Below, in pieces: positions 33,932-59,293 of a stretch of 64,000 nucleotides of DNA (the first letter of the stretch is position 1; each line of letters opens with the position of its first letter). A program made the position numbers and the translations under genes. Source of the DNA: Litchfieldia alkalitelluris (GTDB taxonomy: Bacteria > Bacillota > Bacilli > Bacillales > Bacillaceae_L); assembly GCF_002019645.1 (NCBI RefSeq), contig NZ_KV917374.1, positions 4,858,369 to 4,922,368 of the forward strand, written 5' to 3'. Below the pieces are notes generated by a model. It was given only the letters and a program-made list of their open reading frames with translations. It was not told the origin of the DNA and made no database searches.

Positions 33932-34405
33932 CTATATTTCGTTAAGTTTTATCCAAACTTTTTCATATACTTTTTTTAAAGGTACCTTGTTAGCTCTCGC
34001 TATTTCTTTGCACTCTTCATATTCGGGGGACCTTTGGATGACTTCTCCTTCATAAATCCCTTCTTTAACAGTGACGGTTCCCCACTCAATATCCACCCTC
34101 CTAAATCTCCTCTCAACACGATGAACGGTTAGAGGATAATAGCGCAATCCAAGGGTAGTTGTTTCGTTGAATAAAATTTCCTTCATTCTATTCAAGTTCC
34201 TATTGGAACAAAGTAATTGAAGTAACACTCCAGGTCTATTTTTTTTCATATAAATCGGGGTGTAAAACACATCATTTGCCCCTGATTCAAAAAGCAAATC
34301 CATTACATATCCAAGCCATTCACCTGACATATCGTCTAAATTGACTTCCATTTTAAACATTTGATCATCCATATGTTCATGATTAGGAGGAAGCTTTGAA
34401 ACCAT
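33932..34405 (-). CDS. larC2: Nickel-pincer cofactor nickel insertase, C-terminal part LarC2
   Basis: The C-terminal half of LarC, which inserts nickel into the pyridinium dithiocarboxylate cofactor. It has the conserved FKMEVNLDDMSGEWLGYVMD then LFESGANDVF and the RRxxxE-like VERRFRRVDIEWG. The ATG at 34405 (157 residues) is chosen because AAAGGGGA lies 7 bases before it; an in-frame TTG at 34429 has no RBS. The frame is +1 relative to larC1, and a TAA closes it immediately upstream of that TTG. Read-through or simple slippage from larC1 therefore cannot give the fused protein. Last gene of the uxaC-lar operon. Confidence 0.85.
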   Translation of the reverse strand: MVSKLPPNHEHMDDQMFKMEVNLDDMSGEWLGYVMDLLFESGANDVFYTPIYMKKNRPGVLLQLLCSNRNLNRMKEILFNETTTLGLRYYPLTVHRVERRFRRVDIEWGTVTVKEGIYEGEVIQRSPEYEECKEIARANKVPLKKVYEKVWIKLNEI

Positions 34406-34442
34406 GCATGGGTCCCCTTTCATTGTCAATTATCTTTTTTTT

Positions 34443-35645
34443 CTATTCTCCTATAATGACACGTAGAACGTTTGGGCGATCTTTAAAAGTTTTCGTCCCG
34501 GCCCCATAACCTATAGATTTGACTTCCATTGATGGAAGGGTGCAAAACTCCTCGGACAACACTGATACTATGGCAGCTCCAGTTGGTGTAGTAAGCTCAA
34601 ATCTCACATTGCTTTGTTCAATTGGTACACCTTTTAGCATTTCTAATGTAGCAGGAGCTGGTACTGGGTAAATCCCATGATCAATATGAATTCTGCCCGT
34701 CCCTACTGGTATAGATGAGGATTTTATCCTCTTAATGTCTAATTGATGAATTAAAATGGCCGTACCAATAATATCGATAATAGAATCCACTGCACCCACT
34801 TCATGAAAATGTACATTTTCCAAAGGAATACCATGAATCTTCCCTTCTGCCTCACCAATCTTTTTAAAGATTTTTAGAGATGTTTCTTTTACTTCATCAG
34901 ATAATTCAGCTGTTTCAATTAACGTTACAATATCTTTATACGCTCGATGAGCATGGTGATGGTGATGAGCATGACGGTGACCATGTGAATGATCGTGATC
35001 ATGTGAATGATCGTGATCATGTGAATGATCGTGATCATGTGAATGATCGTGATCATGTGAATGATCGTGATCATGTGAATGATCGTGATCATGTGAATGA
35101 TCGTGATCATGTGAATGATCGTGATCATGTGAATGATCGTGATCATGTGAATGATCGTGATCATGTGAATGATCGTGATCATGTGAATGATCGTGATCAT
35201 GTGAATGATCGTGATCATGTGAATGATCGTGATCATGTGAATGATCGTGATCATGTGAATGATCGTGATCATGTGAATGATCGTGATCATGTGAATGATC
35301 GTGATTATGTGAATGATCGTGATCATGTGAATGAACATGGTTATGTGAATGATCGTGATCATGTGAATGAACATGGTTATGTGAATGATCGTGATCATGT
35401 GAATGAACATGGTTATGTGAATGATCATGCGAATGAGTAGCATCATCATTCAATATCACATCAAACTTTGTCCCAGTTATTCCATTTTTGATGACTTTCT
35501 TCCATTCCAGTGTATATTCTTCTGAAATGTTTAATTTTTTCAGTTCTTCTTCTAACTTACTAGGGTCCGCTCCTGCATCAAGCAATGCTCCAATAACCAT
35601 ATCTCCACTAACCCCAGAAAAACAATCAAAGTACAATGTCTTCAT
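34443..35645 (-). CDS. larC1: Nickel insertase N-terminal part LarC1 with giant His-rich insert
   Basis: A 400-residue protein. Residues 1-70 (YFDCFSGVSGDMVIGALLDA) and 234-400 (ENVHFHEVGAVDSIIDIIG, then ELTTPTGAAIV and RPNVLRVIIGE) are normal LarC1. Residues ~71-233 are almost purely His, Asp and Ser with a few Asn and Val, mostly repeats of SHDHDH. A loop in this place is commonly His-rich in LarC, but one of ~160 residues is extraordinary. It probably binds or stores nickel for delivery to the cofactor. The gene starts at the base after the larB stop, with AAGGGAG upstream. Confidence 0.9.
   Translation of the reverse strand: MKTLYFDCFSGVSGDMVIGALLDAGADPSKLEEELKKLNISEEYTLEWKKVIKNGITGTKFDVILNDDATHSHDHSHNHVHSHDHDHSHNHVHSHDHDHSHNHVHSHDHDHSHNHDHSHDHDHSHDHDHSHDHDHSHDHDHSHDHDHSHDHDHSHDHDHSHDHDHSHDHDHSHDHDHSHDHDHSHDHDHSHDHDHSHDHDHSHDHDHSHDHDHSHDHDHSHGHRHAHHHHHAHRAYKDIVTLIETAELSDEVKETSLKIFKKIGEAEGKIHGIPLENVHFHEVGAVDSIIDIIGTAILIHQLDIKRIKSSSIPVGTGRIHIDHGIYPVPAPATLEMLKGVPIEQSNVRFELTTPTGAAIVSVLSEEFCTLPSMEVKSIGYGAGTKTFKDRPNVLRVIIGE
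34983..35430. repeat. 18-bp tandem repeat inside larC1, about 25 copies
   Basis: The unit (plus strand CATGTGAATGATCGTGAT) is repeated almost perfectly. The copies near 35330-35430 are variants with AACATGGTTATG. It codes for the SHDHDH repeat on the minus strand and leaves other frames open. All units are multiples of 3, so slippage changes protein length without breaking the frame. Confidence 0.95.
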
Positions 35646-36395
35646 CTATATGACTCCCTTTTTTGCTATTTGATAGATTAAGGCAGCGTTATATGCACCA
35701 CCAAATCCGTTATCGATATTTACTACACTAATGCCTGATGCACATGAATTTAACATGGTTAGTAATGCAGACAATCCATTAAAATTCGCCCCATATCCTA
35801 CGCTTGTCGGAACGGCCATGATTGGATGAGAAACAAGTCCACCGACCACGCTAGGAAGTGCTCCTTCCATTCCTGCTACTACAACAGAAACTGTCGCATT
35901 TTGAATCTCTTCGATATTATCAAAAAGACGATGAATTCCTGCTACACCAACATCATATATCCTGCGAACATTACACCCTAACGCTTCTGCGGTAACTGCA
36001 GCTTCTTCTGCTACCTTTAAATCTGATGTCCCCGCACAGACAATGGCAATATACCCCTCAAAAGAATCTTCCTTTGTATCCTCCCTCCAAAAAAGGATTT
36101 GAGCTAGCTCATTATAAATAAACTCCGGATACTTCTTAAGGATATACTCCGCTTTTTCTTTTGTTATCCTTGTAACCAATACATCATTGTTATTTGACCT
36201 TATTGCATTAATAATTGAAAGTATTTGTTCCGCCGTTTTTCCTTCTCCATAAATGACTTCTGGAAATCCTTGTCTTTTTTTTCGATGATGATCGACCTTT
36301 GCAAATCCCAAATTCTCATATGTCGCAAGTTTTTCCTTTGCTTCTTTCACCGTTAATTTCCCACTTTGAACCTGCTCTAAAATCTCTTCCATCAT
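35646..36395 (-). CDS. larB: Nickel-pincer cofactor carboxylase LarB
   Basis: 249 residues. LarB carboxylates and hydrolyses nicotinic acid adenine dinucleotide in the first step of the nickel-pincer cofactor pathway. The C-terminal half is AIR-carboxylase-like: IVCAGTSDLKVAEEAAVTAE, then GVAGIHRL, VVAGMEGALPSVVGGL and PTSVGYGANFNGLSALL. The N-terminus has the usual DHHRKKRQGFPEVIYGEGKT. AAGGAG precedes the first ATG. It sits between gntK and larC1 in the operon, tightly linked to larC1. Confidence 0.95.
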   Translation of the reverse strand: MMEEILEQVQSGKLTVKEAKEKLATYENLGFAKVDHHRKKRQGFPEVIYGEGKTAEQILSIINAIRSNNNDVLVTRITKEKAEYILKKYPEFIYNELAQILFWREDTKEDSFEGYIAIVCAGTSDLKVAEEAAVTAEALGCNVRRIYDVGVAGIHRLFDNIEEIQNATVSVVVAGMEGALPSVVGGLVSHPIMAVPTSVGYGANFNGLSALLTMLNSCASGISVVNIDNGFGGAYNAALIYQIAKKGVI

Positions 36396-36441
36396 AATTA
36401 TTCACTCCTTAGTCGCCGCAAACAAATATATTTAACATTTA

Positions 36442-37914
36442 CTAAAAATACTTTTTTAGATCATGCACAAACAACTCATATTTCCTATATATCACTGAAT
36501 ATATTTCATGATTGTTTTGATCTGGTATAATTGGAGATCCCATCGGAATATTCTTTTTTATTTCATCAAAAGACGTTACCTTTTCTAATGCGACTAAAGC
36601 TGTCCATGCTGCTCCCCAGGCTGCACTATGATGGGTCTCTGAAACATATACTTCTTTTCCAAAAACATCAGCTAATATCTGTAACCATACTTTCGATCTT
36701 GATAAGCCTCCATTAACATAGATTTTTTCTGATTCACCAACTGAATGTTCTAATGCTTTAGCAATTTGGTATAAATTAAAAGTAATTCCCTCTAGCACTG
36801 CACGAACAAAGTGCTCGGGTTTATGGGTAACAGTCATTCCAAAAAAATTCCCTTTCGCATGTTGGTTCCATAATGGCGCTCTTTCACCATTTATATAAGG
36901 GAAAAATAACATCCCCTCCGCTCCTGGCATCACTCGTTCGGCTTCATTCGTAAAATCATCAAAGCTACCTTGGTAGGATAAAAGTTCTTTTAACCATTGT
37001 AGGGCAATCCCACCATTATTTGTCGGACCACCAATAATATAATCATCCTCTGTAAATGCATAACAAAAGGTTTCGTGGTTATCACTTAGCTTGAAACCTT
37101 TTGTAAACTGTCTGATAGCTCCGCTTGTCCCAGCAGTGATTGCCACTTCTCCCTTTGAAATGGCCCCAATTCCTAAGTTAGCTAATTGACCGTCAGCTGC
37201 CCCTATTACAAACGGGATTTCTCGTGGAAGTCCTAACTTTTCTGCTACCTCTTCCTTTAATCCAGTTAAAACTTTAGTTGGGGGAACAATGTTCGATAGT
37301 TGTTCCTTCTTGATTCCTGCTTTGTCTACAAGCTCATCATCCCACTGAAGAGTTTGACCATTAAATAGCCCTGTGGCTGACGCCATTGAATAGTCAATGA
37401 CTCGCTCATTAAACCATTTGAACAGAAGATACTCCTTGATTGAAAGAAAATATTGTGCATTAAGATATGGCTCATATTCCGTTTCCTTCATCCAAACTAA
37501 CTTTGATAGTGGAGACATCGGGTGTGTTGGCATTCCATTTTTTTCATAAATGTTCATTCCATCTGTTTGCATTAAATGAGCAGCTTGTTCACTACTTCTT
37601 CCATCAGCCCAAATAAATGCATTTGACAAAGGCATTCCATGCTCATCCATACAAAGGAGGGAATGCATCGCAGCTGATAGACCAACTGTTACTAATTCAT
37701 GTTTCTCTATGTTCGCAGAATTCATTGCCTCTAAAACAGCTTGTATAGCTAGTTGTTCTATTTCATCCGAATTTTGCTCAACCCAGCCTGGTTGAGGATA
37801 ATAGGAAGTGATTAATTTTTCAGATTCTGAGACAACCTTCCCCTCTAGTGTAAAAATGATCGCTTTTACACTTGTTGTTCCAATATCAAGACCCATGACC
37901 ATCTCTCTAGACAT
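36442..37914 (-). CDS. gntK: Gluconokinase (FGGY family)
   Basis: A 490-residue kinase phosphorylating D-gluconate to 6-phosphogluconate. The N-terminal ATPase lobe has MGLDIGTTSVKAIIF, then GLSAAMHSLLCMD and WADGRSSEQA. The C-terminal lobe has ITAGTSGAIRQF, the FFPYINGERAPLWN motif typical of Bacillus GntK, and YVNGGLSRSKVWLQILAD. It lies inside the run of nickel-cofactor genes between larE and larB. Its product is the substrate of Gnd, encoded 6 kb away under the same operator type. Confidence 0.92.
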   Translation of the reverse strand: MSREMVMGLDIGTTSVKAIIFTLEGKVVSESEKLITSYYPQPGWVEQNSDEIEQLAIQAVLEAMNSANIEKHELVTVGLSAAMHSLLCMDEHGMPLSNAFIWADGRSSEQAAHLMQTDGMNIYEKNGMPTHPMSPLSKLVWMKETEYEPYLNAQYFLSIKEYLLFKWFNERVIDYSMASATGLFNGQTLQWDDELVDKAGIKKEQLSNIVPPTKVLTGLKEEVAEKLGLPREIPFVIGAADGQLANLGIGAISKGEVAITAGTSGAIRQFTKGFKLSDNHETFCYAFTEDDYIIGGPTNNGGIALQWLKELLSYQGSFDDFTNEAERVMPGAEGMLFFPYINGERAPLWNQHAKGNFFGMTVTHKPEHFVRAVLEGITFNLYQIAKALEHSVGESEKIYVNGGLSRSKVWLQILADVFGKEVYVSETHHSAAWGAAWTALVALEKVTSFDEIKKNIPMGSPIIPDQNNHEIYSVIYRKYELFVHDLKKYF

Positions 37915-37985
37915 CCTTCATCTCCCATTTCAATGTAATAATGTTTACAGAAAAAGCCTTGGAGAAAATTCCAAAGCCTTTTCTA

Positions 37986-38786
37986 TTATGAAAGAACCTT
38001 ATTCATACTTCCGCTCTTGTAACCTACTAAATCTAATGTTATATATTTGAATCCGTATTTTATAAGCTCTTTTGAAATGGCTTCATGATTCTCTAATACT
38101 AGAGTCATATCACTCGGTTCTACCTCAATCCTTGCAATTTCTTGATGTGTTCTAACTCGGACCTGGCGTATATTTAATGATTTTAAATACATTTCTGCTT
38201 TTTCCACTTTTGTTAGCTTTTCAATTGTAATTTGTTCACCATAAGCAATCCTAGATGATAAACAAGCAAAAGAAGGTTTATTCCATGTTGGTAAATCATA
38301 GTCTCTAGAAAGCTCTCGAATCTCGTCTTTAAATAGATTTGCTTCTTGTAATGGCCCACGAATTCCCTTTTCCTTTGCCGCTGTCATGCCTGGACGAAAT
38401 TCATTTAAATCATCTGCTATAACACCATAAACAACATTATTAAATCCCTTTTTTTCCATGACAGGAATTAAGTGATCAAAAAGACTGCTTTTACAAAAAT
38501 AACAACGATTTCGATCATTTTCAGTATATCCAGGGATTGCTAATTCTGAGGTCTCTAAGACAAGATGATTTACCCCTATTCTCTTCGCTAACTCCTTTGC
38601 CTCTTCTAGTTCACTAGAAGGATATGTTTCAGAATCGGCGGTCACAGCAACTACCCGATCCGGCCCAAGTATATCAACCGCTACTTTTAATAAGAAGGTA
38701 CTATCCACTCCACCCGAAAAAGCGACAACAACAGAGTCCATTTCACGGAGAATTGACACTAACTTCAAATACTTTTCATTAATCAT
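37986..38786 (-). CDS. larE: Nickel-pincer cofactor sulfur transferase LarE, three-cysteine type
   Basis: A 266-residue PP-loop ATPase that adds sulfur to the pincer precursor. The ATP loop SGGVDS is at 24-29. Cys175 in PSFACLSSRIAYGE matches the sulfur-donating Cys176 of Lactobacillus plantarum LarE. Two more cysteines are present, Cys95 and Cys98 in RCYFCKSSLF, where the L. plantarum protein lacks them. Three-cysteine LarE proteins are reported to hold a [4Fe-4S] cluster and to work without sacrificing the protein. AAAGGAG precedes the ATG. It lies between the SDR and gntK genes. Confidence 0.92.
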   Translation of the reverse strand: MINEKYLKLVSILREMDSVVVAFSGGVDSTFLLKVAVDILGPDRVVAVTADSETYPSSELEEAKELAKRIGVNHLVLETSELAIPGYTENDRNRCYFCKSSLFDHLIPVMEKKGFNNVVYGVIADDLNEFRPGMTAAKEKGIRGPLQEANLFKDEIRELSRDYDLPTWNKPSFACLSSRIAYGEQITIEKLTKVEKAEMYLKSLNIRQVRVRTHQEIARIEVEPSDMTLVLENHEAISKELIKYGFKYITLDLVGYKSGSMNKVLS

Positions 38787-38867
38787 TGTCCTTCTCCTTT
38801 CTTATCAATCTGATATGTTTTAAAATACATAGATTCATAGATTAATAGTTCCTACCTTCTAATTCAA

Positions 38868-39638
38868 TTAAATTGTCATACTTCCAAAACCACCGTCAAC
38901 TCGAATAAGAGTACCGGTTACAAAGCTTGAAGCCTGCTCAGAGGAAAGCCAAACCGCAGCTCCTTTTAACTCATCCGGATTTCCAAACCTCTTCATAGGT
39001 GTATGATTCATTATTGATTCAATTCGCTCTTCGCTAAGGATTTTCCTATTTTGTTCTGCAGGAAAAAATCCAGGGATAATGGCATTTACACGAATCCCGT
39101 AAGGAGCAAATTCTCGCGCTAAAAACTGTGTGACACTATTTACTCCAGCCTTTGAGACTGAATACGTAAATACTTTTGATAATGGTGTAGTGGAAGAAAC
39201 TGAAGAAATATTAATGACGCTTCCTTTTTTTTCCTGTTCAATCATTTTTTTAGCAAATATCTGGCAGGCAACGACAAGCCCTTTTAAATTCACATCCATA
39301 ATGTCATCCCATTCTTCCATCTCTAAATCAAAAAATGGAGTTGCACTATTTTTCCCTGGTGCATTAAGTAAAATCTCAAACCCACCTGACCACTCTTCAA
39401 TTTCTTTTGCCACACGTTCTAAAGATTCTCTTGAGCAAACATCTGCTTGAAAGGCTTTACCTTCCCCTCCACTTTTTTCAATCTCTTGGACTACTACATT
39501 TGCTTTTTCAAGATTACGACCAACAATTGCAATCTTCGCCCCATGTTCAGCTAAGCCTTTGGCAATGGAAGCTCCTAATACACTATTTCCTCCAATTGCT
39601 ACAGCAGTTTTCCCAGTTAAATCAAATAATTGACTCAA
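38868..39638 (-). CDS. uxuB: SDR oxidoreductase, probable fructuronate reductase (D-mannonate dehydrogenase)
   Basis: A 256-residue short-chain dehydrogenase. The nucleotide-binding segment is GKTAVAIGGNSVLGASIAKG. The catalytic Ser is in NISSVSS and the YxxxK pair in YSVSKAG. PGFFPAEQNRKIL and MKRFGNPDELKGAAVWL resemble the SDR-type D-mannonate oxidoreductase of Bacillus (YjmF/UxuB). The TTG at 39638 is preferred to an upstream frame extension because AAGGGGG lies 8 bases before it. Between uxaC-larA and larE it is well placed to reduce D-fructuronate to D-mannonate. A gluconate 5-dehydrogenase role is the main alternative. Confidence 0.78.
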   Translation of the reverse strand: MSQLFDLTGKTAVAIGGNSVLGASIAKGLAEHGAKIAIVGRNLEKANVVVQEIEKSGGEGKAFQADVCSRESLERVAKEIEEWSGGFEILLNAPGKNSATPFFDLEMEEWDDIMDVNLKGLVVACQIFAKKMIEQEKKGSVINISSVSSTTPLSKVFTYSVSKAGVNSVTQFLAREFAPYGIRVNAIIPGFFPAEQNRKILSEERIESIMNHTPMKRFGNPDELKGAAVWLSSEQASSFVTGTLIRVDGGFGSMTI

Positions 39639-39720
39639 TTTAAAAGCCCCCTTAGCGCCATCTATAGGTAGCAATTTTCCCTGGTGAAAACTGAATTGCT
39701 ACCTGTCAGTGTTTTGTTTT

Positions 39721-40989
39721 TTAAAATAAGTTTCCGTTCTCATCAAAGGATAGCTCAAATAGTTCTGAACTCTGGTCCATTTGAGGATGCTGATTAATAT
39801 GGTCGAGTAAAGCTTCTGACACTTCGATTTCACTTATTTCAAGTGTATTTTTGATTCGAACCATTTTCACCTTTGTAAAATCCAAGATGTTACATGTTTT
39901 AATGGCTGCTTGTATCGCCTCTTTATCATTAGATAGAGTCGTTGCTATTTTTGTTGGTGCACACACCGTTGAAGTTAATCCATTGGCATAGGTAAATTCA
40001 AGATTCATTTTGTCAACTAGTCGTTGGGTCGTGAAATCTGCAGTTCCGACTCCATTGGCATTCCCTTCCGTTTCATGTGTTAAATCAAGGACCACCATTT
40101 TATTTACCTCTGGTCCACCATGTGCATATGGAGTTGGATAACGACCGGTGATATTGGGATCCATCCCGTCTCCGCTGATATTTTTCCCAATTTTGTCAAT
40201 CACAAGGACGTCTATCTGTTCAAAGAAAAGCTTTGGTAATAATTGTTTCGCTTGTTTCTGTAAGTCCGGTTCTTTTTCGGCAATTTCTTCGGCCGCTACC
40301 ACCTCAACACTCGTAACCTTATCAAAAGCATTTTCAATCGACGCTACCCCAAAGAGGACCGGTGTTTTTTCCATGATCATCTTTGCCATCGCAGGAACAT
40401 TTTCTGCCATATACTTAAATCCCAATTGATGACAAGCCTCTGCCCCCTTTTGTTTTCCTAAACCAATACTAATCATCTTCATAATTCCACTCTCAACAGG
40501 TCCACGAAAAGCTGTATGAGGTTTTATCCGATTAATCACCACAATTCCATCTGCTTTTGAAGCAAATTGATCTACATAAACAGGTAGGCCACTTGATAAT
40601 TCACCTAACTTTATAACGTCCATCGATGAACGAATTTCCGCACCTACAGTTTCTTCGGTTACACCAAGATGTGCTAAGACTTCACGCTGGCCTTCTGCAG
40701 TAGCACCTCCATGACTCCCCATACTAGGTACTATGAATGGTATCGCCCCTAGTTCTTTTAAATATTGTACTGTGACAGATGTAATATCAACTAGACGATC
40801 CATACCACGACTTCCAACTGCAATGGCAATTTCCATGCTGGGTTTTACTTTTTTACGAATTATTTCTTGATTTAATTTTCCTTTTAGGTCTTGCTCAAGA
40901 TTTTCTAGTTTTTTGTCATCAAAATGCTGTCTTACTTTAACCATCTTCGGCACTGGAATATCTTTTAATAAATCTTGAATGATGCCCAT
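39721..40989 (-). CDS. LarA family nickel-pincer enzyme, proposed D-mannonate/D-gluconate 2-epimerase
   Basis: A 422-residue homologue of nickel-dependent lactate racemase. Residues that hold the cofactor and act as acid/base are conserved: His93 (GSHGGATAEG), His158 (RIKPHTAFRG), Lys171 (GIMKMISIGLGK, the lysine linked to the cofactor) and His187 (GAEACHQ). The substrate loops differ from those of true LarA. LarA relatives include malate, aryl-lactate and gluconate epimerases. Lying between uxaC/uxuB and gntK, its best substrate is D-mannonate, the C2 epimer of D-gluconate. GGAGGGT precedes the ATG; it follows uxaC by 22 bp. Function is inferred. Confidence 0.8.
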   Translation of the reverse strand: MGIIQDLLKDIPVPKMVKVRQHFDDKKLENLEQDLKGKLNQEIIRKKVKPSMEIAIAVGSRGMDRLVDITSVTVQYLKELGAIPFIVPSMGSHGGATAEGQREVLAHLGVTEETVGAEIRSSMDVIKLGELSSGLPVYVDQFASKADGIVVINRIKPHTAFRGPVESGIMKMISIGLGKQKGAEACHQLGFKYMAENVPAMAKMIMEKTPVLFGVASIENAFDKVTSVEVVAAEEIAEKEPDLQKQAKQLLPKLFFEQIDVLVIDKIGKNISGDGMDPNITGRYPTPYAHGGPEVNKMVVLDLTHETEGNANGVGTADFTTQRLVDKMNLEFTYANGLTSTVCAPTKIATTLSNDKEAIQAAIKTCNILDFTKVKMVRIKNTLEISEIEVSEALLDHINQHPQMDQSSELFELSFDENGNLF

Positions 40990-41011
40990 ACCTTACCCTC
41001 CAATTACATGT

Positions 41012-42415
41012 TTACTTTACAGAAAAGAAGTTTTTCGCATTATGAAAACCTATATTTTCAACCATTTGATGTAGAATCTCTTCATCATTTGGCGCCTGGC
41101 CACTTTCAACCCATTCTCCAATGAGATGGCACAAAATTCTTCGAAAATAATCATGTCTTACATATGAAAGTAGACTACGAGAATCTGTGGTCATGCCGAT
41201 AAAATGACTGAGAATTCCCAAGTTTGCTAAGTCTTTCATCTGTCTTGTCATTCCATCTAGCTGGTCATTGAACCACCATCCAGAACCAAATTGAACTTTC
41301 CCTGGAACACCTTCCTCAAAGAAGTTCCCAATCATTGTTCCAATCACATAATTATCACGAGGATTTAAATTATATAGGACCGTTTTAGGCAGTGAGCCCA
41401 TGCTATCTAATGTATCTAAGAAACGGGATAAGCCTTCAGCCAAAAGTTGGTCTCCAATCGAATCAAAGCCACCATCAGCCCCAATTCGTTTTTGCATATG
41501 GGTATTATTATTTCTCAACGCTCCCATATGAAGTTGCATCACCCAATTTTTCTCCGCATACATTTTACCTAGTTCAACTAAAAGATAGGAACGATACCCA
41601 ATAATTTCTTCTTGGGTAAGTTCTCCCTGAATTAAACGTTTCTGAAAAATGGTTTCTACTTCGTTTTCCGAAAACGCTTTAAAGTTCATTTGTGTAATAT
41701 CATGATCTGAAGCCAGACAACCATTCTTTGCAAAGTAGTCCACTCTTTGTTTTAAAGCTTTAATCAACTCTTTTAAACTGGAAATCTTAATGGCTGAAAC
41801 ATCTTCGAGTTTACTCATCCAATCATGAAATGATGATCTTTCAATAAATAAGGCGCCGTCCGGACGAAAAGTAGGAGCAACTTCCACACTAAATGTTTCA
41901 TCTTCCTTTAATAATTGATGATATTCTAGCATAGAGGTTGGATCATCTGTTGTTCCTACAAATTCAACATTTGATTTCTCTATAAAGCGTCGAGGCTTGT
42001 AATCCGGAGTGCTTATTTTCTCATTACATTCTAGCCAGATTTCACGAGCGGTTTTTGGTGACAATCTCTTATCTATCCCAAAATAGGTTTTTAACTCCAT
42101 ATGTGTCCAGTGATACAACGGGTTTCCAATTAAATGAGGAACTGTCTCAGCCCATGCCTCGAACTTCTCCCAATCAGTTGCCTCCCCTGTGATAAGTCTT
42201 TCACTTACCCCGTGCATACGCATAGCTCTCCATTTATAATGATCTCCTGCAAGCCATAGTTGCGCTATATTTTCAAATGAATGGTTTTCATATATTTCTT
42301 TTGGACTTAAATGACAATGATAATCAAAAATCGGTAGTTTCTTCATGATATTTTGAAAAAGATGTTCTGCTGTAGAATTCGTTAATAAAAAGTCATCGCC
42401 TAAAAACGCCTTCAT
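41012..42415 (-). CDS. uxaC: Glucuronate isomerase
   Basis: 467 residues, the normal UxaC length. It converts D-glucuronate to D-fructuronate (and galacturonate to tagaturonate). DYHCHLSPKEIYEN at the N-terminus carries the amidohydrolase-like metal His pair. Further family segments are RMHGVSERLITGEATDWEKF, GTTDDPTS, QLHMGALRNNNTHM and GMTTDSRSLLSYVRHDYFRR. It is the first gene of the operon, preceded by GGGGGG and a perfect palindromic operator. It receives glucuronate released by the beta-glucuronidases. Confidence 0.95.
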   Translation of the reverse strand: MKAFLGDDFLLTNSTAEHLFQNIMKKLPIFDYHCHLSPKEIYENHSFENIAQLWLAGDHYKWRAMRMHGVSERLITGEATDWEKFEAWAETVPHLIGNPLYHWTHMELKTYFGIDKRLSPKTAREIWLECNEKISTPDYKPRRFIEKSNVEFVGTTDDPTSMLEYHQLLKEDETFSVEVAPTFRPDGALFIERSSFHDWMSKLEDVSAIKISSLKELIKALKQRVDYFAKNGCLASDHDITQMNFKAFSENEVETIFQKRLIQGELTQEEIIGYRSYLLVELGKMYAEKNWVMQLHMGALRNNNTHMQKRIGADGGFDSIGDQLLAEGLSRFLDTLDSMGSLPKTVLYNLNPRDNYVIGTMIGNFFEEGVPGKVQFGSGWWFNDQLDGMTRQMKDLANLGILSHFIGMTTDSRSLLSYVRHDYFRRILCHLIGEWVESGQAPNDEEILHQMVENIGFHNAKNFFSVK

Positions 42416-42445
42416 TCTTTTTGCCCCCCAAGTATTACCTATAAT

Positions 42446-42470
42446 TTAATTTGTTTACAAAACAAATTAA
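42446..42470. promoter_or_regulatory. Perfect ROK-type operator in the uxaC promoter
   Basis: Arms TTAATTTGTTT (42446-42456) and AAACAAATTAA (42460-42470) are perfect inverted repeats around ACA. This is like the XylR-type ROK operators of Bacillus. A possible promoter on the minus strand (TTTTGA, 16 bp, TAAAAT) lies just upstream of it, so binding would block uxaC transcription. Confidence 0.8.
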
Positions 42471-42639
42471 TTATTTTATCATTAGACTATCATCTCAAAA
42501 TGATTTCGTCAACAGGTGTCATTTATATAAATTTAGTAAATAAGGGAACATAAGTGTATAATGTTTTTATTAGAAATTTTGGTGATTTATAAAATCTTGA
42601 ATTTAGATAGATATAATTTGATTAAAAGGGTGGAGTTTT

Positions 42640-43824
42640 ATGGCAATTGGTGATGCTGCTTACATAAAGAAAATAAATAGAAGTCAAATCATAAGTAAAA
42701 TTATAGAACAAGGAATGATATCTAGAGCTGATTTATCTAAAATTACGAAATTAACCAGAGCAACGATTTCTGTCCAAGTGGCTGATTTATTAGAGGAGGA
42801 ATTGATTGTTGAATCCCAGCAGGAGCATAATACTGTGGGGAGAAAGCCAATCATGCTTTCTCTTAATCGACTTGCAGGATATGCTCTAGGAATTGATCTA
42901 GACTTTCGAACTATTTCTTTTACAGTATCGGATTTAACCGGTAATCCAGTTCGAACTGATCATGTTGAGTTAGAAAACTCAAATTATGATGAGGTTCTTC
43001 AAATCTTAATCAACGAGATTAGAGGCTATAAAGAAAAATATTCTCATAGTCGTTTTGGGATTGTTGGGGTTGTCATTGGCATCCATGGAATAGTCAAGAA
43101 CGACAACACAATTAGCTTTGTCACACAGCACAAATGGTACAACAAAGACCTTAAGGGTGACCTTGAGAGAAATTTACACACTGAAATATACATAGAAAAC
43201 AATGCAAATTTATGTTCTTTTGCGGAAAAGGTATATACTCATCATCAAAGTGAAAACTTGGTTAGCGTTAGTATGTATTCTGGCATTGGACTTGGAATCC
43301 TAATTAATGGTGAGCTATTAAAAGGATATCATGGTTACGCAGGTGAAATGGGGCACATGATCATCATACCTGACGGAAAACCTTGTAATTGTGGTAATTT
43401 GGGTTGTTGGGAGCTTTATGCTTCTGAGAATAGCTTCCTAAAACAATTAGCTGAAAATCTAAATCAACATCTACTGTCCTATGAGGAGGTTAAAGAGCTA
43501 ATTCATGCAAACAATCCAGTTGCCATGCAACAAATTGAAGAGTTTTTAAAGTACATAGCCGTAGGCCTTAATAATATTATCAATTTATTAAACCCAGAAA
43601 CTTTGGTATTAAATAGTGAATTACTAAAAATGATTCCAAATGCAGAAAGTAAGATTAAGGCGAACCTCAAATCCTCAATTAGTGATTATAAAGAATTGTT
43701 AATTTCAGAACTTGGCACAAATGCCAGTGTCATGGGTGCGTGTGCTTTAGCTATTAAAAATTTCCTAGAAATCCCAGAGTTAAGCTTTACCATCGAAAAT
43801 GATATATTAGAAGGGATTAATTAA
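42640..43824 (+). CDS. ROK family transcriptional repressor of the uronate genes
   Basis: A 394-residue XylR/NagC-type repressor. The N-terminal winged helix contains ISRADLSKITKLTRATISVQ. The ROK sugar-binding domain follows, with YAGEMGHMIIIPDG and the zinc motif CNCGNLGCWE. It is divergent from the uxaC-lar operon. Its likely operator, with AATTTGTTT/AAACAAATT arms, occurs before uxaC, before gnd and in a remnant region at 53972. The ligand is probably glucuronate, fructuronate, mannonate or gluconate. GGGTGGAG precedes the ATG. Confidence 0.9.
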   Translation: MAIGDAAYIKKINRSQIISKIIEQGMISRADLSKITKLTRATISVQVADLLEEELIVESQQEHNTVGRKPIMLSLNRLAGYALGIDLDFRTISFTVSDLTGNPVRTDHVELENSNYDEVLQILINEIRGYKEKYSHSRFGIVGVVIGIHGIVKNDNTISFVTQHKWYNKDLKGDLERNLHTEIYIENNANLCSFAEKVYTHHQSENLVSVSMYSGIGLGILINGELLKGYHGYAGEMGHMIIIPDGKPCNCGNLGCWELYASENSFLKQLAENLNQHLLSYEEVKELIHANNPVAMQQIEEFLKYIAVGLNNIINLLNPETLVLNSELLKMIPNAESKIKANLKSSISDYKELLISELGTNASVMGACALAIKNFLEIPELSFTIENDILEGIN

Positions 43825-43827
43825 ACG

Positions 43828-43874
43828 ACCTTCTTATAAGCAACTAGTCTAAGCTGCTTATAAGGAGGTTTTCA
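43828..43874 (+). terminator. Terminator of the ROK gene
   Basis: ACCTTCTTATAAGCA pairs with TGCTTATAAGGAGGT (15 bp, one G-T wobble), followed by TTTTC. Confidence 0.85.
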
Positions 43875-43936
43875 TTGTTAAGGAGACTGTTATTCTCCAG
43901 ATATATCTACTTATAGGTGGGCCTAAAAGGTTCATT

Positions 43937-43972
43937 AAAAAAATCCCTTCATTAATTGTTATTACGAAGGGA
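43937..43972 (-). terminator. Terminator of gnd
   Basis: TCCCTTC (43944-43950) pairs with GAAGGGA (43966-43972). On the minus strand it runs into a T7 tract, 27 bases after the gnd stop. Confidence 0.75.
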
Positions 43973-43998
43973 ATCTATTTTCTTAAAAAGGGAATCAA

Positions 43999-45408
43999 TT
44001 AAATCCAGTTTGTGTGGAATACTCCTTCTTTATCAACACGTTGATACGTATGAGCACCAAAGTAATCACGTTGTGCTTGCAATAAATTTGCTGGTAAGGT
44101 TTCGGAGCGATAGCTATCATAATAAGCAATAGCACTTGAAAATGCTGGTACTGGAATACCTCTCTCAATTGCCAATCCGACAACCTGGCGCAATTCTGCT
44201 TGGTAGTTTTCTGCAATTTCCTTAAAGTATGGATCTAATAAAAGGTTCGCTAGATTTGCATCACGCTCATAGGCATCTTTAATTTTTTGTAAGAATTGAG
44301 CCCGAATAATACATCCTCCACGGAAAATCATCGCGATGTCCCCATAGTTAAGATTCCAATCATATTCCTCCGATGCTGAGTGCATTTGAGCAAACCCTTG
44401 GGCATAAGACACAATTTTACTAAAATATAAAGCCTTACGTACTGATTCAATTAACTCCTCTTTGTTCCCCTTAAAAGCTTCCATTTTTGGTCCTTGTAAT
44501 AATTTGCTTGCTTTCACACGCTCATCTTTCATAGCGGAAATAAAACGAGCAAATACAGACTCTGTAATAATTGGAAGAGGAACACCCAAGTCTAATGCAT
44601 TTTGACTTGTCCATTTACCCGTTCCTTTTTGTCCAGCCGTATCCAAAATCAAATCTACAAGCGGCTTCCCGGTTTCTTCATCCACTTTCGTAAATATATC
44701 TGCGGTAATCTCAATTAAATAGCTGTCTAGTTCTCCTTTATTCCACTCTGCAAACACTTCATGAAGCTCGGTAGCACTTAAGCCAAGGGCATTCTTAAGG
44801 ATAAAATAAGCCTCACAAATTAACTGCATATCTCCGTACTCGATTCCATTATGAACCATTTTCACATAATGACCAGCTCCATTGGGACCGATATAGGTGC
44901 AGCAAGGATCATCTTCTACTTTTGCTGAAATGGATTTTAAGATAGGCTCTACCAATTCATATGCTTGTCTTTGGCCCCCAGGCATAATTGAAGGACCTTT
45001 AAGTGCTCCTTCCTCCCCGCCCGATACTCCTGTTCCAATAAAATGAATACCCGTCTTCTCCAATTCCAGATTCCGTCTTATGGTGTCTTGAAAAAATGTA
45101 TTACCACCATCAATGAGAATATCTTCTTTTTCAAGGTAAGGCTTTAAAGAATCTATCGTTGCATCTGTCGCAGTACCAGCTTTAACCATTAATAATATCT
45201 TTCTTGGCTTTTCTAAAGAATCAACAAACTCCTGAATCGTCTTTGCACCAACAAAGTTTTTCCCTTCTGCTTCATTTTTTAAAAACTCTTCTGTTTTATC
45301 ATATGAACGGTTAAATACAGATACAGAATAACCTCTACTTTCAATATTTAGTGCAAGGTTTTTACCCATAACCGCTAAGCCGATGACACCAATTTGCTGT
45401 TTTGACAT
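43999..45408 (-). CDS. gnd: 6-phosphogluconate dehydrogenase (decarboxylating)
   Basis: 469 residues, the standard length. It converts 6-phosphogluconate to ribulose 5-phosphate and CO2. The NADP-binding N-terminus is [20 protein letters not shown] and the substrate segments are [20 protein letters not shown] and [14 protein letters not shown], where the Lys and Glu are catalytic. The C-terminal [17 protein letters not shown] region is also typical. It is convergent with the ROK gene and carries the same operator type as uxaC, so it is probably induced with the uronate operon rather than being only the housekeeping copy. Confidence 0.95.
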
Positions 45409-45454: not shown

Positions 45455-45479
45455 TTAATTTGTTTTGTAAACTAATTAA
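45455..45479. promoter_or_regulatory. ROK-type operator upstream of gnd
   Basis: Arms TTAATTTGTTT (45455-45465) and AAACTAATTAA (45469-45479) around TGT, 10 of 11 positions paired. It is nearly identical to the uxaC operator and ~50 bp from the gnd start. The rest of the gap to 45752 shows nothing clear. Confidence 0.78.
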
Positions 45480-45752: not shown

Positions 45753-47975
45753 CTAGTCATTCACTTTTTGGATTTGATTCAATGCTTTGTTAATTTCAAC
45801 AACCATTGACTCAGGAATAGAGCCTCCTGATTGTTTAATTAGTGCTTCAACAGTCATAGCATTCATTATTTTAATCATGGATTCAGATTTTTTCACATTT
45901 TTTGCAACATCTCCTCGTTTTGCCTTTGCATAATTCATCATATTGTCTAGGATTTGGGCTCCCTCAGGACTTTTCCGAATATCCGCCATAACGTCTTTAA
46001 TAGAATAATAACCCTCAGGTTGGTTCATTTCTGGATGATCAAACCAATTTATAACATCTCGTCCTACTAGTACATAATCCTTATTCTTTTCTGACACTTT
46101 TCTTATCGTGATTTCATCTGAACAATTTCCTGCTTTTACTTCGATTCTATGCTCGTCCTGAAGTTTCAATTTAAATATAAATACTTTATTACCACTTTGC
46201 TTTTCTACAAGTTCGCCGTTACTATATAGTTCAACTGAGTCATAATTTGAGTACACTTTAATTTCTGTTACTTCTTCGTGACGCTCTACATAATTCCTTC
46301 CACATAAATGAACAAAAGGTTCATTATTCCAGTACGCCTTGTAAAGATAGAACGCATCCTTCTTATACTTTCTATCAAAAGTGATGAGCCCCTTCTGGTT
46401 TATGCCGTTCTCTCCACCCTCATCTCGACCATCTGCAGCGAAGTCAAACATATTCCATACATGTGTTGCCCAAAGATAAGGACGGTCATTAAACATATTT
46501 ACCATATGTTCATGATATACTGTCTGATATTGTTCTGTATAATCCCCTTTCTCTGGTGTTGGAGATTGTAATTTTGGATTAGCATCTGCACCATATTCAG
46601 CTAAACCAATTATTTTATCTGGGTATTTTTTATGAAAGTCATCAAAGAATTTATCATTATCCGCTAGATTTCCTAAATACCAACCATAGTATAAGTTATA
46701 AGACATAATATCAGGTAAGGTTACTAATGGTTCATCAATTTCAAGCATAAATACGTGAGCCATAGTTGTTGGTCTAGTACTGTCTAGGCTATGTGCCAAA
46801 TCATTTAATATCTTGTGGTTCTCCATTAAATCATCCGTTACACCCGTAACAGTTATTTCATTCGATAATCCCCAACAAATGATCGATGGATGGTTATAGT
46901 TCTGTACTATTAATTCTGTCAACTGTGTTATCGTATTCTCTCTTCCATTAGTCATATGTTCTGTGATATAAGGTATTTCAGCCCATACAATCATTCCATA
47001 TTCGTCACATAAATCATAAAAGTACTGATCATGTTGATAATGGGCTAAACGGATAGTATTTGCACCAATTTCCTTTATCAGTTCCATATCTTCTATCATC
47101 ATTTCTCTAGTAATAGCGTTTCCAGCACCTCTTCTGTCTTGGTGCCGCGAAACACCTCTAAGTGGATAAGGTCTACCATTTAAAATAAATCCTTTATCCT
47201 TATCAAAAGAAAATGTTTTACATCCGAAACGACTTTCTACCTGGTCGATCACGTTCCCATCTTTTATAAGCTCTGCTTTTGCTTCATATAAATATGGATT
47301 TTCCACACCATCCCATAATTGAACTTTTGGAATTTCAATTTTACCAGAAGCAACTCCTTCGACAACAGGAACTTCTGTGGATCCTACGCCATTAATTGTG
47401 TAGCGAACTACTTCGGCTTCACCTGTTACAAATGATTTCAAATCTACATTTGCAGATTTCTCAATTATTTCAGATGTTATATTTAAACCACTACCACCAT
47501 AATAATCCATATCAAAGTGACTATCAGCCACAATTACCATGTACACATCGCGATATATTCCACCATAAAAGGTAAAGTCAGCCTTCTGAGGATACACCCG
47601 ATCATTAGGACTATTATCAACAGAAACGACCAGCTCATTTTCTTCTTTTAAGACTTCTGTAATATTCACTCTAAAAGTCGAATAACCTCCATCATGTTTA
47701 GATAGTTTAGTATTATTCATCCATACTTCTGCTGTAGAGTTTGCACCTCGAAATTCCAGATATACCTGATCACCATTATTTAATTCTGGCTTATCAAAAG
47801 TCTTCCCATACCAGCAAGTTCCTCTGTAATAATCATTACCACCATCTTGTCCATCAATAGCGTTCCATGTATGAGGAATATTTATTTTCTCACCTTGTGT
47901 TCCGAATATTTTCTCTGCACCAACATTTTCTTTTACAAATTTCCAATCTTCGTTGATTAATATTGTCTTTCTCAC
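45753..47975 (-). CDS. GH2 family beta-glucuronidase/beta-galactosidase with C-terminal helical domain
   Basis: A 740-residue retaining glycosidase. It has a sugar-binding jelly roll, an immunoglobulin-like domain and a TIM barrel with acid/base Glu in CWGLSNEITVTG and nucleophile Glu in IGLAEYGADANP. NGINQKGLITFDRKYKKDAF has the Asn-x-Lys pattern of glucuronidases, but it also occurs in GH2 galactosidases, so specificity is open. After ~residue 560 comes a beta-domain, and the last ~90 residues form a helical appendage like the N-terminus of the oxidoreductase at 13703. GTG start with AGGAGG 7 bases upstream. No signal peptide. Confidence 0.88.
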   Translation of the reverse strand: MRKTILINEDWKFVKENVGAEKIFGTQGEKINIPHTWNAIDGQDGGNDYYRGTCWYGKTFDKPELNNGDQVYLEFRGANSTAEVWMNNTKLSKHDGGYSTFRVNITEVLKEENELVVSVDNSPNDRVYPQKADFTFYGGIYRDVYMVIVADSHFDMDYYGGSGLNITSEIIEKSANVDLKSFVTGEAEVVRYTINGVGSTEVPVVEGVASGKIEIPKVQLWDGVENPYLYEAKAELIKDGNVIDQVESRFGCKTFSFDKDKGFILNGRPYPLRGVSRHQDRRGAGNAITREMMIEDMELIKEIGANTIRLAHYQHDQYFYDLCDEYGMIVWAEIPYITEHMTNGRENTITQLTELIVQNYNHPSIICWGLSNEITVTGVTDDLMENHKILNDLAHSLDSTRPTTMAHVFMLEIDEPLVTLPDIMSYNLYYGWYLGNLADNDKFFDDFHKKYPDKIIGLAEYGADANPKLQSPTPEKGDYTEQYQTVYHEHMVNMFNDRPYLWATHVWNMFDFAADGRDEGGENGINQKGLITFDRKYKKDAFYLYKAYWNNEPFVHLCGRNYVERHEEVTEIKVYSNYDSVELYSNGELVEKQSGNKVFIFKLKLQDEHRIEVKAGNCSDEITIRKVSEKNKDYVLVGRDVINWFDHPEMNQPEGYYSIKDVMADIRKSPEGAQILDNMMNYAKAKRGDVAKNVKKSESMIKIMNAMTVEALIKQSGGSIPESMVVEINKALNQIQKVND

Positions 47976-51961: not shown

Positions 51962-53461
51962 TTATTTAGCTTTAGCCTCTATAACGCTTTCTTGATTTTT
52001 CTCACGTCGCTTGTCTAATTCAATTCTTATTTCTTCCATTTTATTTTTATCCAATTTATAAAATTTCATTGCAATAAGTGTTGCAATCCAACCTAAAATT
52101 AAAATTCCATAGTTTAAAAACATCGCCATCCAGAAGATACTGTCTGAGTATGGCGTATTAACATCAGGAAATGCAGCTTTAAAACCAATCATAGCTAAAC
52201 ATATACCTACGACGGTTTGAGCCAAAGAAGATACTCCTTTATCAATAAATGAATATACACTACTAACGACACCAGGTACATATCGTCCCGACTTATATGC
52301 TTCGTAATCAACAATATCTGGTATCATCGGTGTAACAAATGCTAATGGTAATTTAACAAGTGAAGTCAATGCGAGATATGATACTACAAATGCAACAGTC
52401 ATAAATCCCCAATTTGTTAGACTAATTTGAGTTGGATCACCAATCCATAAAACTAAAAAGGAAATAATAGCTACAAAGATAGACATCCAAGTTGTCATGA
52501 CTAAACCACTTTTTGAACCGCGTTTTCTAGCAAAGCCAAAACCAAACAGTATGAACAATATATTAGGTATTAAAGCAATTAATGCTAATTGACCAGCTAG
52601 CGCAAAATTCCCGATAATAATTCCAAATAGCATTACACCAACAACTTGATTACCCTTTATTTGCATAGCAAGCTTATCTGTTGCTGCTGCCACGATAAAC
52701 AATTGTAAATTCCTATTACCTTTAAGTACGGAAAACATTTCTCTAAAATTAAGTGGCTTCGCATCGACATTTCCATCTCCGTAATTTTCCACTCGATCTT
52801 TTGGCCAGATGACGAAAAGAGCTATTGAAGTAAGAACAGCACCCGCTACAATAATCCAGATTGTTAACTCTTGGTATATTCCCGCGTTATTAAGACCACC
52901 ATACTTCGGCACTAGGAAGTTTGATAATACAAACCCAAATATTGCGCTGACTAGTGATATATAAATCGCTGCTGCTGCTCCCAAAGTTGGACGTTGACTA
53001 GAGTCTCTGGTCAAGATGGAATACCCAGCTGTACTTGCTACTGAATAAAATGTGTACCCAAAAATAAAAATCACATATAAAAATATAAAATAAATCATTT
53101 TTATGGATTCAGGAACTAGATGAGAAGTAAAATATATTAATAACGTCGTTACAGCCATAATGATAAAACCAAAAAATAAAAATATGCTCACTTTACCAAA
53201 TCTTCCTTGAGTTCTATCAATAATATAACCCATTATTGGATCGGTAACAGAATCCAGAATACGCGTACCAGTAATGATAACCGAGGCAACAACAGTACCT
53301 AATCCTACAATACCTGCAGCATAAAAAGACACAAGCATCATTGCCATCAAAAATAATATACTAACAATCGCACCAGCCGGATAAAGGATCAATTCCCATA
53401 AATTCGTTCTACCATTATCTTGCCTTCTAGTAAGTGTTCCTAGTTGGTTATTACTTGACAT
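51962..53461 (-). CDS. GPH family sugar transporter
   Basis: A 499-residue symporter with about 12 membrane segments. RILDSVTDPIMGYIIDRTQG then RFGKVS is the GPH loop 2-3 signature and PDIVDYEAYKSGRYVPG the conserved central loop. The C-terminal tail is charged. It is unlike the GPH protein at 25650 in detail, so it probably takes a different substrate, perhaps the one cleaved by the GH78 or GH2 enzymes nearby. AGGAGG precedes the ATG and a cre-like box is upstream. Confidence 0.88.
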   Translation of the reverse strand: MSSNNQLGTLTRRQDNGRTNLWELILYPAGAIVSILFLMAMMLVSFYAAGIVGLGTVVASVIITGTRILDSVTDPIMGYIIDRTQGRFGKVSIFLFFGFIIMAVTTLLIYFTSHLVPESIKMIYFIFLYVIFIFGYTFYSVASTAGYSILTRDSSQRPTLGAAAAIYISLVSAIFGFVLSNFLVPKYGGLNNAGIYQELTIWIIVAGAVLTSIALFVIWPKDRVENYGDGNVDAKPLNFREMFSVLKGNRNLQLFIVAAATDKLAMQIKGNQVVGVMLFGIIIGNFALAGQLALIALIPNILFILFGFGFARKRGSKSGLVMTTWMSIFVAIISFLVLWIGDPTQISLTNWGFMTVAFVVSYLALTSLVKLPLAFVTPMIPDIVDYEAYKSGRYVPGVVSSVYSFIDKGVSSLAQTVVGICLAMIGFKAAFPDVNTPYSDSIFWMAMFLNYGILILGWIATLIAMKFYKLDKNKMEEIRIELDKRREKNQESVIEAKAK

Positions 53462-53971: not shown

Positions 53972-53998
53972 TTTAATTTGTTTACCAAACGAATTAAA
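53972..53998. promoter_or_regulatory. Orphan ROK-type operator
   Basis: Arms TTTAATTTGTTT (53972-53983) and AAACGAATTAAA (53987-53998) around ACC, 11 of 12 positions paired. It matches the operators of uxaC and gnd. On the minus strand an AAGGAGG site follows ~15 bases later, but no intact gene does; only the beta-glucuronidase tail remains further on. Confidence 0.75.
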
Positions 53999-57999: not shown

Positions 58000-59293
58000 A
58001 TCGAGTAGAGGGAAAATAAGTTAATTATTTTCGCCCCTCTCACACCACCGTACGTACGGTTCCGTATACGGCGGTTCAATTTATATTACAGTGTGTACTT
58101 TTAGATAATGTTCTAAAGCAGAGGGAAGTCCCCTCTGCTTTAGTCTTTTGTTTGAAATTGCTCTTTGAACAACTTTCGATAATCCGATAAACCGGTAACC
58201 TTTTCGACAGAACGTTAGTCCTTTCGCTTCTTCTTCGGGTATCCCTAGTTGAATTAGCGATTTGATTTGTTTTCTTGTAATTTTCCATTGCTTCCAGATG
58301 ATGACTATAATTCTGGAGCGAAGCTTCTTATCAATTTGCTTTGTAGCTTCTTTCATGAACAGTATCGAAGAATCTTTCCAGGTCAATGTCCACTACCCAA
58401 TCGTGTCCATCATTCAGATATTCCAAGCTTTTAATAGTAGCCATCTCACAACTTCTTTTCGGTCTAAAGCCGTAACTGTATTCACTAAATTGCTTTTCAA
58501 ATATCGGACTGAGAACTTGATGAATGGCTTGTTGAACAACTCTATCCACTACTGTTGGTATTCCCAACTTGCGCATCTTGCCATTTTCTTTTGGGATTTC
58601 CACTCTTAAGGCAGCTTGTGGTTGGTATTTTCTTGTTCTGATGCGCTGACGTAGCTCATCTTTGTTCTCTTTCAGATATTGCTTTAGTTCGTCGACCGTT
58701 ATTCCATCGACTCCACTAGCACCTTTATTTTTATAGACACGCAGGTAGGCTTCATTCATATTTTGATTACTTAGAATCTGTTCTAAAAGTTCCACACTCG
58801 TTTCTCCTTTCCCCTCACGTAATAAGTGATAGCTCCATTTTGGTTATCCTTTGAGATACGCTCATACTTTCCCCATTAACACATTCGGAGTAGGTCACTT
58901 ATGCATTCGTGGCGTTGAAACACTATAAATTGTTCAGCCCTTCATGAATTACTTCATTACTATGGCTTCTGCTGACTTCTTGCGGCAAACCTTTTTCGAC
59001 TGTACCCATGTACATCCGCAAGACCTCCCAGGGTAAGACAACTATCTTTCCTCTTTTACTCGCCTGATTTACCCTACAGAGTTACGCACATCTTTTGGAC
59101 TTTGGCTTGTTTGGGAGCCTTATCCCTTTGTAGAGCCTTAGTATCAGATTCCTGTTCGTCGAGCCAAGATTTTATTACCACGCTTCCTCCAGCCCTTACC
59201 TCACGGTAAGTACCTTGCGCTTCCTTAGTGGTTGGTCGATGTGTACCCCCACAGTGGACTTTCACCACCTAGATAGTTGCCAGCCTGGCACAC
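58000..59293 (-). mobile_element. Group II intron (class C-like) with deleted reverse transcriptase
   Basis: On the minus strand the 5' end reads GTGTGCCAGGCTGG at 59293. A domain-V-like hairpin lies near 58040-58080 (GAACCGCC...GTACGGTGGTGTGAGAGG), and the 3' end is CTACTCGAT at ~58000. The element sits right after a terminator hairpin (59298-59320), the usual target of class C introns. The encoded protein lacks its middle, so it cannot move on its own. Boundaries are from motif recognition, accurate to a few bases at best. Confidence 0.8.
58081..58795 (-). pseudogene. ltrA: Group II intron reverse transcriptase/maturase, internally deleted
   Basis: The N-terminal part (58795-~58350) has RVYKNKGASGVDGITVDELK, VEIPKENGKMRKLGIPTVVD, SYGFRPKRSC and DIDLERFFDTV (RT motifs 0 to 3). 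The C-terminal part (~58386-58081), in another frame, has the maturase region KQWKITRKQIKSLIQLGIPE then RYRFIGLSK-like GYRFIGLSKVVQRAI. The catalytic YADD block and about 200 residues between are gone. Confidence 0.88.

Follow-up and report, generated by a model that had tools for sequence, protein, structure and literature searches.

A route from glucuronate to the pentose phosphate pathway through epimerisation of mannonate is already known as an idea from Thermotoga maritima, as is the mannonate/gluconate epimerase activity of other LarA groups. Rodionova et al. (2012) proposed the same steps as those discussed here for T. maritima, as told in PMC7583248 and PMC6978723, and Desguin et al. 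demonstrated in 2020 that GntE1 and GntE2 are mannonate/gluconate epimerases (PMC7583248), as was later found for LarAH15 and LarAH10 (PMC11770544). Here we describe an operon in Litchfieldia alkalitelluris that joins the glucuronate isomerase gene uxaC with genes for a distant LarA homologue, its nickel-pincer cofactor, a short-chain dehydrogenase/reductase (SDR) and an FGGY-family kinase. It lies in a window of 64,000 nucleotides (nt), the whole stretch of DNA that was analysed (GCF_002019645.1, contig NZ_KV917374.1, positions 4,858,369 to 4,922,368). A first-pass annotation of this window had read the operon as a bypass for glucuronate that replaces UxuA, KdgK and KdgA. The pathway itself is backed by the substrate logic of UxaC, a UxuB-like SDR, a LarA fold, a gluconokinase-like kinase and a gnd gene that shares the operon's operator, and by linkage in relatives; the replacement is not. 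We consider it probable that the module converts D-glucuronate to gluconate and then to 6-phosphogluconate, with the steps in the order given below.

Gene content, operator and proposed steps

All ten genes named by the first-pass annotation, eight in the operon together with a ROK-family gene and gnd, are present:

41012..42415, minus strand: uxaC, glucuronate isomerase, the operon's first gene (NF002794 643 bits, cut-off 387; PF02614 707 bits)
39721..40989, minus strand: LarA homologue, nickel-pincer nucleotide (NPN)-dependent isomerase group 22, proposed D-mannonate/D-gluconate 2-epimerase (NF052515 558.8 bits, cut-off 400)
38868..39674, minus strand: UxuB-like SDR oxidoreductase, proposed fructuronate reductase (NF006132 281.1 bits, cut-off 281)
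37986..38786, minus strand: larE, sulfur transferase for the nickel-pincer cofactor (TIGR00268 364 bits, cut-off 150)
36442..37914, minus strand: FGGY kinase, gluconokinase-like (TIGR01314 474 bits, best family, under the cut-off of 648.55)
35646..36395, minus strand: larB, cofactor biosynthesis (NF033503 313.5 bits, cut-off 175)
34443..35645, minus strand: larC1 with a long His/Asp/Ser repeat (TIGR00299 225 bits, cut-off 90)
33932..34429, minus strand: larC2, a gene apart from larC1 (NF052512 150 bits, cut-off 50)
42640..43824, plus strand: ROK-family transcriptional regulator, divergent from the operon (PF00480 194 bits)
43999..45408, minus strand: gnd, decarboxylating NADP-dependent 6-phosphogluconate dehydrogenase (NF006765 790 bits, cut-off 413)

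The eight minus-strand genes run from 42415 down to 33932 in the order uxaC, larA homologue, SDR, larE, FGGY kinase, larB, larC1 and larC2, with intergenic gaps of 22, 46, 81, 71, 46, 0 and 13 nt, and gnd is placed behind the ROK gene. Curated cut-offs are cleared comfortably by the LarA homologue, LarB, LarC1, LarC2, LarE, UxaC and Gnd, whose names stood; those of the SDR, at its cut-off, and of the kinase, under it, are softer.

From this gene set we infer which compounds the SDR, the LarA homologue and the kinase use and form, and with this the order of steps from fructuronate to 6-phosphogluconate. UxaC would isomerise D-glucuronate to D-fructuronate, which the UxuB-like SDR would reduce to D-mannonate. 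The group-22 LarA homologue, with the nickel-pincer cofactor provided by LarB, LarE, LarC1 and LarC2, would then invert C2 of D-mannonate to give D-gluconate, which the FGGY kinase would phosphorylate to 6-phosphogluconate, and Gnd would turn this into ribulose 5-phosphate, CO2 and NADPH. The ROK protein would regulate the module. If the SDR uses what Gnd yields, the route would be redox neutral to ribulose 5-phosphate, a point made for the related route of Lactobacillus suebicus (PMC6978723).

A 25-nt palindrome, TTAATTTGTTT-N3-AAAC-N-AATTAA, occurs exactly at three places in the window:

42446..42470: operator 1, between the ROK gene and uxaC, 31 nt 5' of uxaC (both strands match exactly)
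45455..45479: operator 2, 47 nt 5' of gnd (pattern match)
53973..53997: operator 3, 512 nt 5' of a GPH symporter gene at 51962-53461 (pattern match)

These places give six strand-matches, a number that none of 100 shuffles equalled (mean 0.02), and mismatch-free sites on at least one strand were found nowhere else in a genome-wide scan. The next-best sites of the genome were one with two mismatches and one with three, a backward control pattern gave one match, and a scan of the canonical uxuA cluster (see below) gave no site. When a somewhat relaxed form of the pattern was run over 43 related loci and 10 Markov-chain controls, a site with at most four mismatches was present in 31 loci (controls: mean 2.9, maximum 6) and one with at most one mismatch in 23 (controls: 0). 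The operator lay within 420 nt 5' of uxaC or larA in 29 of the 43 and was weaker or missing in Paenibacillus loci. With three exact copies in the window and a site widely conserved in related loci, the earlier assignment of gnd to the operon's operator type holds, and the ROK protein presumably binds this operator. The two-mismatch copy (L185, G000:C1:1733091) adjoins another ROK regulator gene, after which, on our own reading of the annotation, come a TIM-barrel isomerase-like gene and a Gfo/Idh/MocA-like gene.

The lar genes have peculiarities of their own. Positions 34977-35426 of larC1 hold an 18-nt repeat in 25 copies that encodes a His-Asp-Ser-rich stretch, possibly metal binding, and that has opened long reading frames on both strands; larC1 encodes 400 residues here, compared with frames of 312-378 residues in some relatives. 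LarC of L. plantarum is a frameshift fusion. At the junction here (34429-34443) larC1 and larC2 are separate genes, and a fusion of the L. plantarum type seems impossible because the larC2 frame is closed just ahead of the larC2 start.

The LarA homologue and its relatives

Taking its alignment and its predicted model together, the protein is a LarA-fold enzyme with both catalytic histidines. A structure search with the AlphaFold model (mean predicted local distance difference test score, pLDDT, 81.4) gave 19 PDB matches with E ≤0.001, 18 of which were LarA, Mar2 or LarA-like structures; these were all top-ranked, with E-values from 1.8e-12 to 1.3e-9 and TM-scores of 0.48-0.53. When the PDB was searched by sequence, neither the single protein nor two profiles reached a LarA structure with a meaningful E-value, and phmmer and profile searches found no match to 4nar (GntE2) at E ≤10. 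The two families did align when their profiles were compared, 14 canonical homologues standing for LarA (probability 90.5, E 1.4e-6, 226 columns), placing LarA R75, H108, H174, K184 and H200 at R61, H93, H158, K171 and H187, each invariant in 24 of 24 group-22 rows. The catalytic histidines, H108 and H174 in LarA, are both kept as H93 and H158, and the cofactor residues R75, K184 and H200 are kept as well. Of 398 genomes sampled from the window's phylum, 85 have a match to group 22 (NF052515) above its cut-off, and some have four. It is a large family that NCBIfam names by number only, and the operon in the window gives one of its clades a concrete candidate substrate.

The gene neighbourhood is conserved. 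We found 43 close loci and counted 42, leaving out L047 (40% identical). The SDR gene stands directly 3' of the LarA homologue in 39 of the 42, and other neighbours are the kinase (31), larE (31), the ROK homologue (30), uxaC (22) and gnd (20); these counts are not independent, several loci being cut by contig ends and the species being related. The linkage of uxaC, SDR, kinase and gnd is kept in other Bacillaceae and partly in Paenibacillus, and in Litchfieldia salsa (L005) the operon is present with a LarA homologue 95% identical. The 43 close loci overlap partly with a second set of 59 regions (L005 and L126, for example), and the two are not independent samples. A quick tree of 126 rows places the window protein in a clade of 58 (SH-like approximate likelihood ratio test, SH-aLRT, 98), whose rows with readable surroundings have the SDR and mostly the kinase, the exceptions being L027, L029 and L147. 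At L147 (genome G637) where the kinase is present, a canonical UxuB (417.5 bits) takes the place of the window-type SDR, which points to D-mannonate as the epimerase substrate. In a survey of 299 genomes of the order, 19 had the window-type clade, and UxaC was present in 19 of 19 of these compared with 64 of the remaining 280 (one-sided Fisher 5e-12).

Variant clusters were also seen. In Lederbergia (L018, L022, L031) the cluster reads uxaE, uxaC, larA22 and SDR, where UxaE, tagaturonate epimerase, scores 656 bits in L018; KdgA follows in L022 and L031, and a short PfkB-type kinase frame is present in L022 as well. None of these three loci showed a gluconokinase gene, the L018 and L022 stretches ending soon after the cluster. 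L027 and L029 have larA22 with larE, larB, larC1 and larC2, and the stretch examined shows neither an SDR nor uxaC nor a kinase close by.

Next to the window's clade in the tree stands a sister clade of 15 rows (SH-aLRT 100), of whose loci 12 have a match to a UxaA-like dehydratase and three a match to a KdgA-like protein. Two of its loci, L132 and L135, were annotated. L132 has a galactonate dehydratase, an IlvD/Edd-type dehydratase and a galactarate/altronate-type dehydratase, along with a TRAP transporter, a KdgR-like regulator and KdgK-like and KdgA-like genes, and L135 has an IlvD/Edd-type enzyme and a KdgR-like regulator. Since aldonate-type dehydratases occur in both annotated loci, group 22 looks like a family of sugar-acid epimerases in general, and the sister-clade enzymes are possibly of the talonate/galactonate type. 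If the window enzyme acts as proposed, the LarA superfamily would have gained mannonate/gluconate epimerisation on more than one occasion. The galactonate dehydratase in L132 also lends something to a different view, in which the window's LarA homologue acts on another sugar acid, derived from the polysaccharide that this locus apparently degrades, and stands in the operon for reasons unrelated to glucuronate; the sulfatases, rhamnosidase and GH39, GH43, GH1, GH2 and GH3 enzymes of the window would fit this as well. Other genera, however, share the linkage with uxaC, SDR, kinase and gnd, and UxaC accompanies the clade in every surveyed genome, which makes this view very unlikely to us.

Step order, enzyme identities and the canonical route

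A number of observations weigh against the pathway by way of mannonate and gluconate, some of which lie in the LarA homologue itself. The fold match is moderate, with root-mean-square deviations of 6.8-10 over the 18 matches at the TM-scores given above, and the model falls below a pLDDT of 50 in three places: residues 160-165, which follow closely on H158, 270-275 and 283-289. An equivalent of LarA D72 is absent (V58 by the R61 register), and one of K298 probably so, as no lysine stands at the aligned position and the invariant R283 lies near it in a weak C-terminal alignment. In gluconate epimerases the second catalytic histidine is followed by a loop signature of E and V/S (PMC7583248, PMC11770544), where the window protein has T159-A160. 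Others lie in the relatives: L147 comes from a stop-containing draft, the rest of which was not searched for a window-type SDR; no kinase gene is present in 8 of the 37 loci of at least 14 kb, in L020 and L022 at least owing to a near contig end; and the Paenibacillus loci L027 and L029 are without a close SDR and without a kinase.

The SDR adds to these points, as it meets the D-mannonate oxidoreductase model NF006132 only at the cut-off (281.1 against 281), where the canonical uxuB elsewhere in the genome reaches 461.7 bits. The two are 42% identical, and a segment of some 20 residues in that uxuB is missing from the SDR, whose second-best family is gluconate 5-dehydrogenase (219.8 bits, cut-off 279). 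Its best solved match by sequence is 1vl8, deposited as gluconate 5-dehydrogenase, a protein that we take to be UxaD. These features would suit an order in which epimerisation comes first, with the LarA homologue inverting C2 of D-fructuronate to give 5-dehydro-D-gluconate and the SDR, as a gluconate 5-dehydrogenase, reducing this to D-gluconate. As D-fructuronate is 5-dehydro-D-mannonate, the stereochemistry works by our own derivation; the gene set is the same, and the gene order uxaC, larA, SDR, kinase would be colinear with the steps. The KM values of tested gluconate 2-epimerases for D-mannonate are moreover high, at 3.8-120 mM (PMC7583248, PMC11770544). On the other hand, the SDR scores 61 bits higher against the mannonate oxidoreductase model than against the gluconate 5-dehydrogenase model, L147 has a canonical UxuB in the SDR's role, and the Thermotoga SDR UxaD is reported with mannonate oxidoreductase activity (PMC5673643). 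We regard this order as unlikely. Were it true, glucuronate would be used without passing through mannonate, by way of D-fructuronate 2-epimerisation, which is not among the reactions reported for nickel-pincer enzymes in the parts of the literature covered.

The kinase raises a similar question. Gluconokinase TIGR01314 is its best-matching family, though its 474 bits stay under the cut-off of 648.55, and a gluconokinase over the cut-off (784.7 bits) sits elsewhere in the genome. Because of these two points the enzyme could instead be a D-mannonate kinase, with the LarA homologue as the missing 6-phosphomannonate 2-epimerase. Extracts of L. suebicus show such activities without identified genes (PMC6978723), and a LarA-like structure from a different subgroup contains a phosphorylated ligand that was modelled speculatively (PMC12611868). 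LarA-family substrates with measured activity are, however, unphosphorylated in the covered parts of the literature, and uxaC, larA and the SDR occur without a kinase gene in L023, L026, L028 and L031, and also in L022, whose contig ends nearby. Such loci are easier to explain if the product is gluconate, because a gluconokinase encoded elsewhere can take it, and phosphorylation before epimerisation seems to us quite unlikely. Conversion of mannonate to gluconate ahead of the kinase is the order that we prefer.

The first-pass annotation had further held that the module replaces UxuA, KdgK and KdgA, none of which it saw in the window. Genome-wide searches for UxuA and KdgA indeed gave matches only outside the window, and no KdgK was found among the 30 of 46 open reading frames of at least 150 residues that were scanned in it, no genome-wide search for KdgK having been made. 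The same genome nevertheless keeps the canonical route, which counts against a replacement: a cluster at C1:1352-1357 kb (L048) holds a LacI-type regulator, a KdgK-like kinase (KdgK being its best family, under the cut-off), kdgA, uxuA and the canonical uxuB together. Of two further uxaC genes, one lies in a glucuronoxylan-type locus and the other next to what we read as uxaB and uxaA. The module coexists here with the canonical mannonate dehydratase route, and with uxuA, kdgA, a KdgK-like gene and uxuB present elsewhere it is a parallel route, not a replacement.

In relatives the module may replace the UxuA route. UxuA is missing in 9 of the 19 window-type-clade genomes compared with 15 of the 64 other UxaC genomes, in a search that left aside other mannonate dehydratase families. 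Its depletion is weak, UxuA being kept in 10 of 19 against 49 of 64 (one-sided p 0.044, kinship ignored). Among the nine, no KdgA match above the cut-off was found either in G541, in G660, which consists of one contig, or in G637; the last of these, the draft with locus L147, is to be weighed lightly because its uxaC and larA22 carry in-frame stops. Genome G416 (locus L126) has no UxuA match. If our reading is correct, some UxuA-less Bacillus relatives, nine of the 19 surveyed, would need nickel for growth on glucuronate.

Surroundings and comparison with known systems

The operon lies in a neighbourhood with two GH2 enzymes (one beta-glucuronidase-like), GH1, GH3, GH39, GH43 and GH78 enzymes, two sulfatases, two GPH symporters and a methylglyoxal synthase. 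Two of these genes stand closest to the proposed pathway:

45753..47975, minus strand: GH2 enzyme, beta-glucuronidase-like, possible glucuronate source (beta-glucuronidase LacZ4 565 bits, best NCBIfam family, under the cut-off of 950)
51962..53461, minus strand: GPH-family sugar:cation symporter behind the third operator (PF13347 139 bits; TIGR00792 153 bits, under the cut-off of 231)

The surroundings look like a polysaccharide locus, and release of glucuronate by the neighbouring enzymes is plausible. With its sulfatases, GH78, GH39, GH43 and GH2 enzymes and GPH symporters, the region 13703-57911 resembles a set of genes for using a sulfated polysaccharide that contains rhamnose, glucuronate and xylose; that the substrate is ulvan-like is a guess. 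A reverse transcriptase fragment (RVT_1) at 58331-58795 is perhaps a group II intron remnant.

Neither PMC7583248 nor PMC11770544 reports an assay of a group-22 enzyme in the parts available, and we found no description of a group-22 enzyme in glucuronate use in the literature covered, which excluded most subscription journals. The canonical UxaC-UxuB-UxuA-KdgK-KdgA route of Bacillus and E. coli shares its first two steps with the pathway proposed here and ends, unlike it, in cleavage of 2-keto-3-deoxy-6-phosphogluconate. The L. suebicus route through a mannonate kinase and a 6-phosphomannonate 2-epimerase is likewise an isomerase route to 6-phosphogluconate, redox neutral to ribulose 5-phosphate, but it differs in the order of phosphorylation and epimerisation, and its genes are unidentified in that organism (PMC6978723). 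LarA groups 18-20 (GntE) share with the window protein the fold superfamily, nearby cofactor genes and both catalytic histidines, whereas the window protein is without a sequence match to 4nar and has T-A in place of E-V/S. The closest system is the T. maritima route with GntE2 (LarAH20), which has the same fructuronate reductase, LarA-superfamily 2-epimerase, gluconokinase and entry into the pentose phosphate pathway (PMC7583248, PMC6978723). The locus described here differs from it in using the distant LarA group 22 rather than group 20, without the GntE loop signature, and in having a Bacillus relative as host and a ROK protein as candidate regulator. The canonical route is also encoded in this genome, and T. 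maritima too matched in our UxuA and KdgA control searches. What is new here is the distant LarA group in this role, the other host lineage, the operator set and regulon, the coexistence with the textbook route and the alternative step orders.

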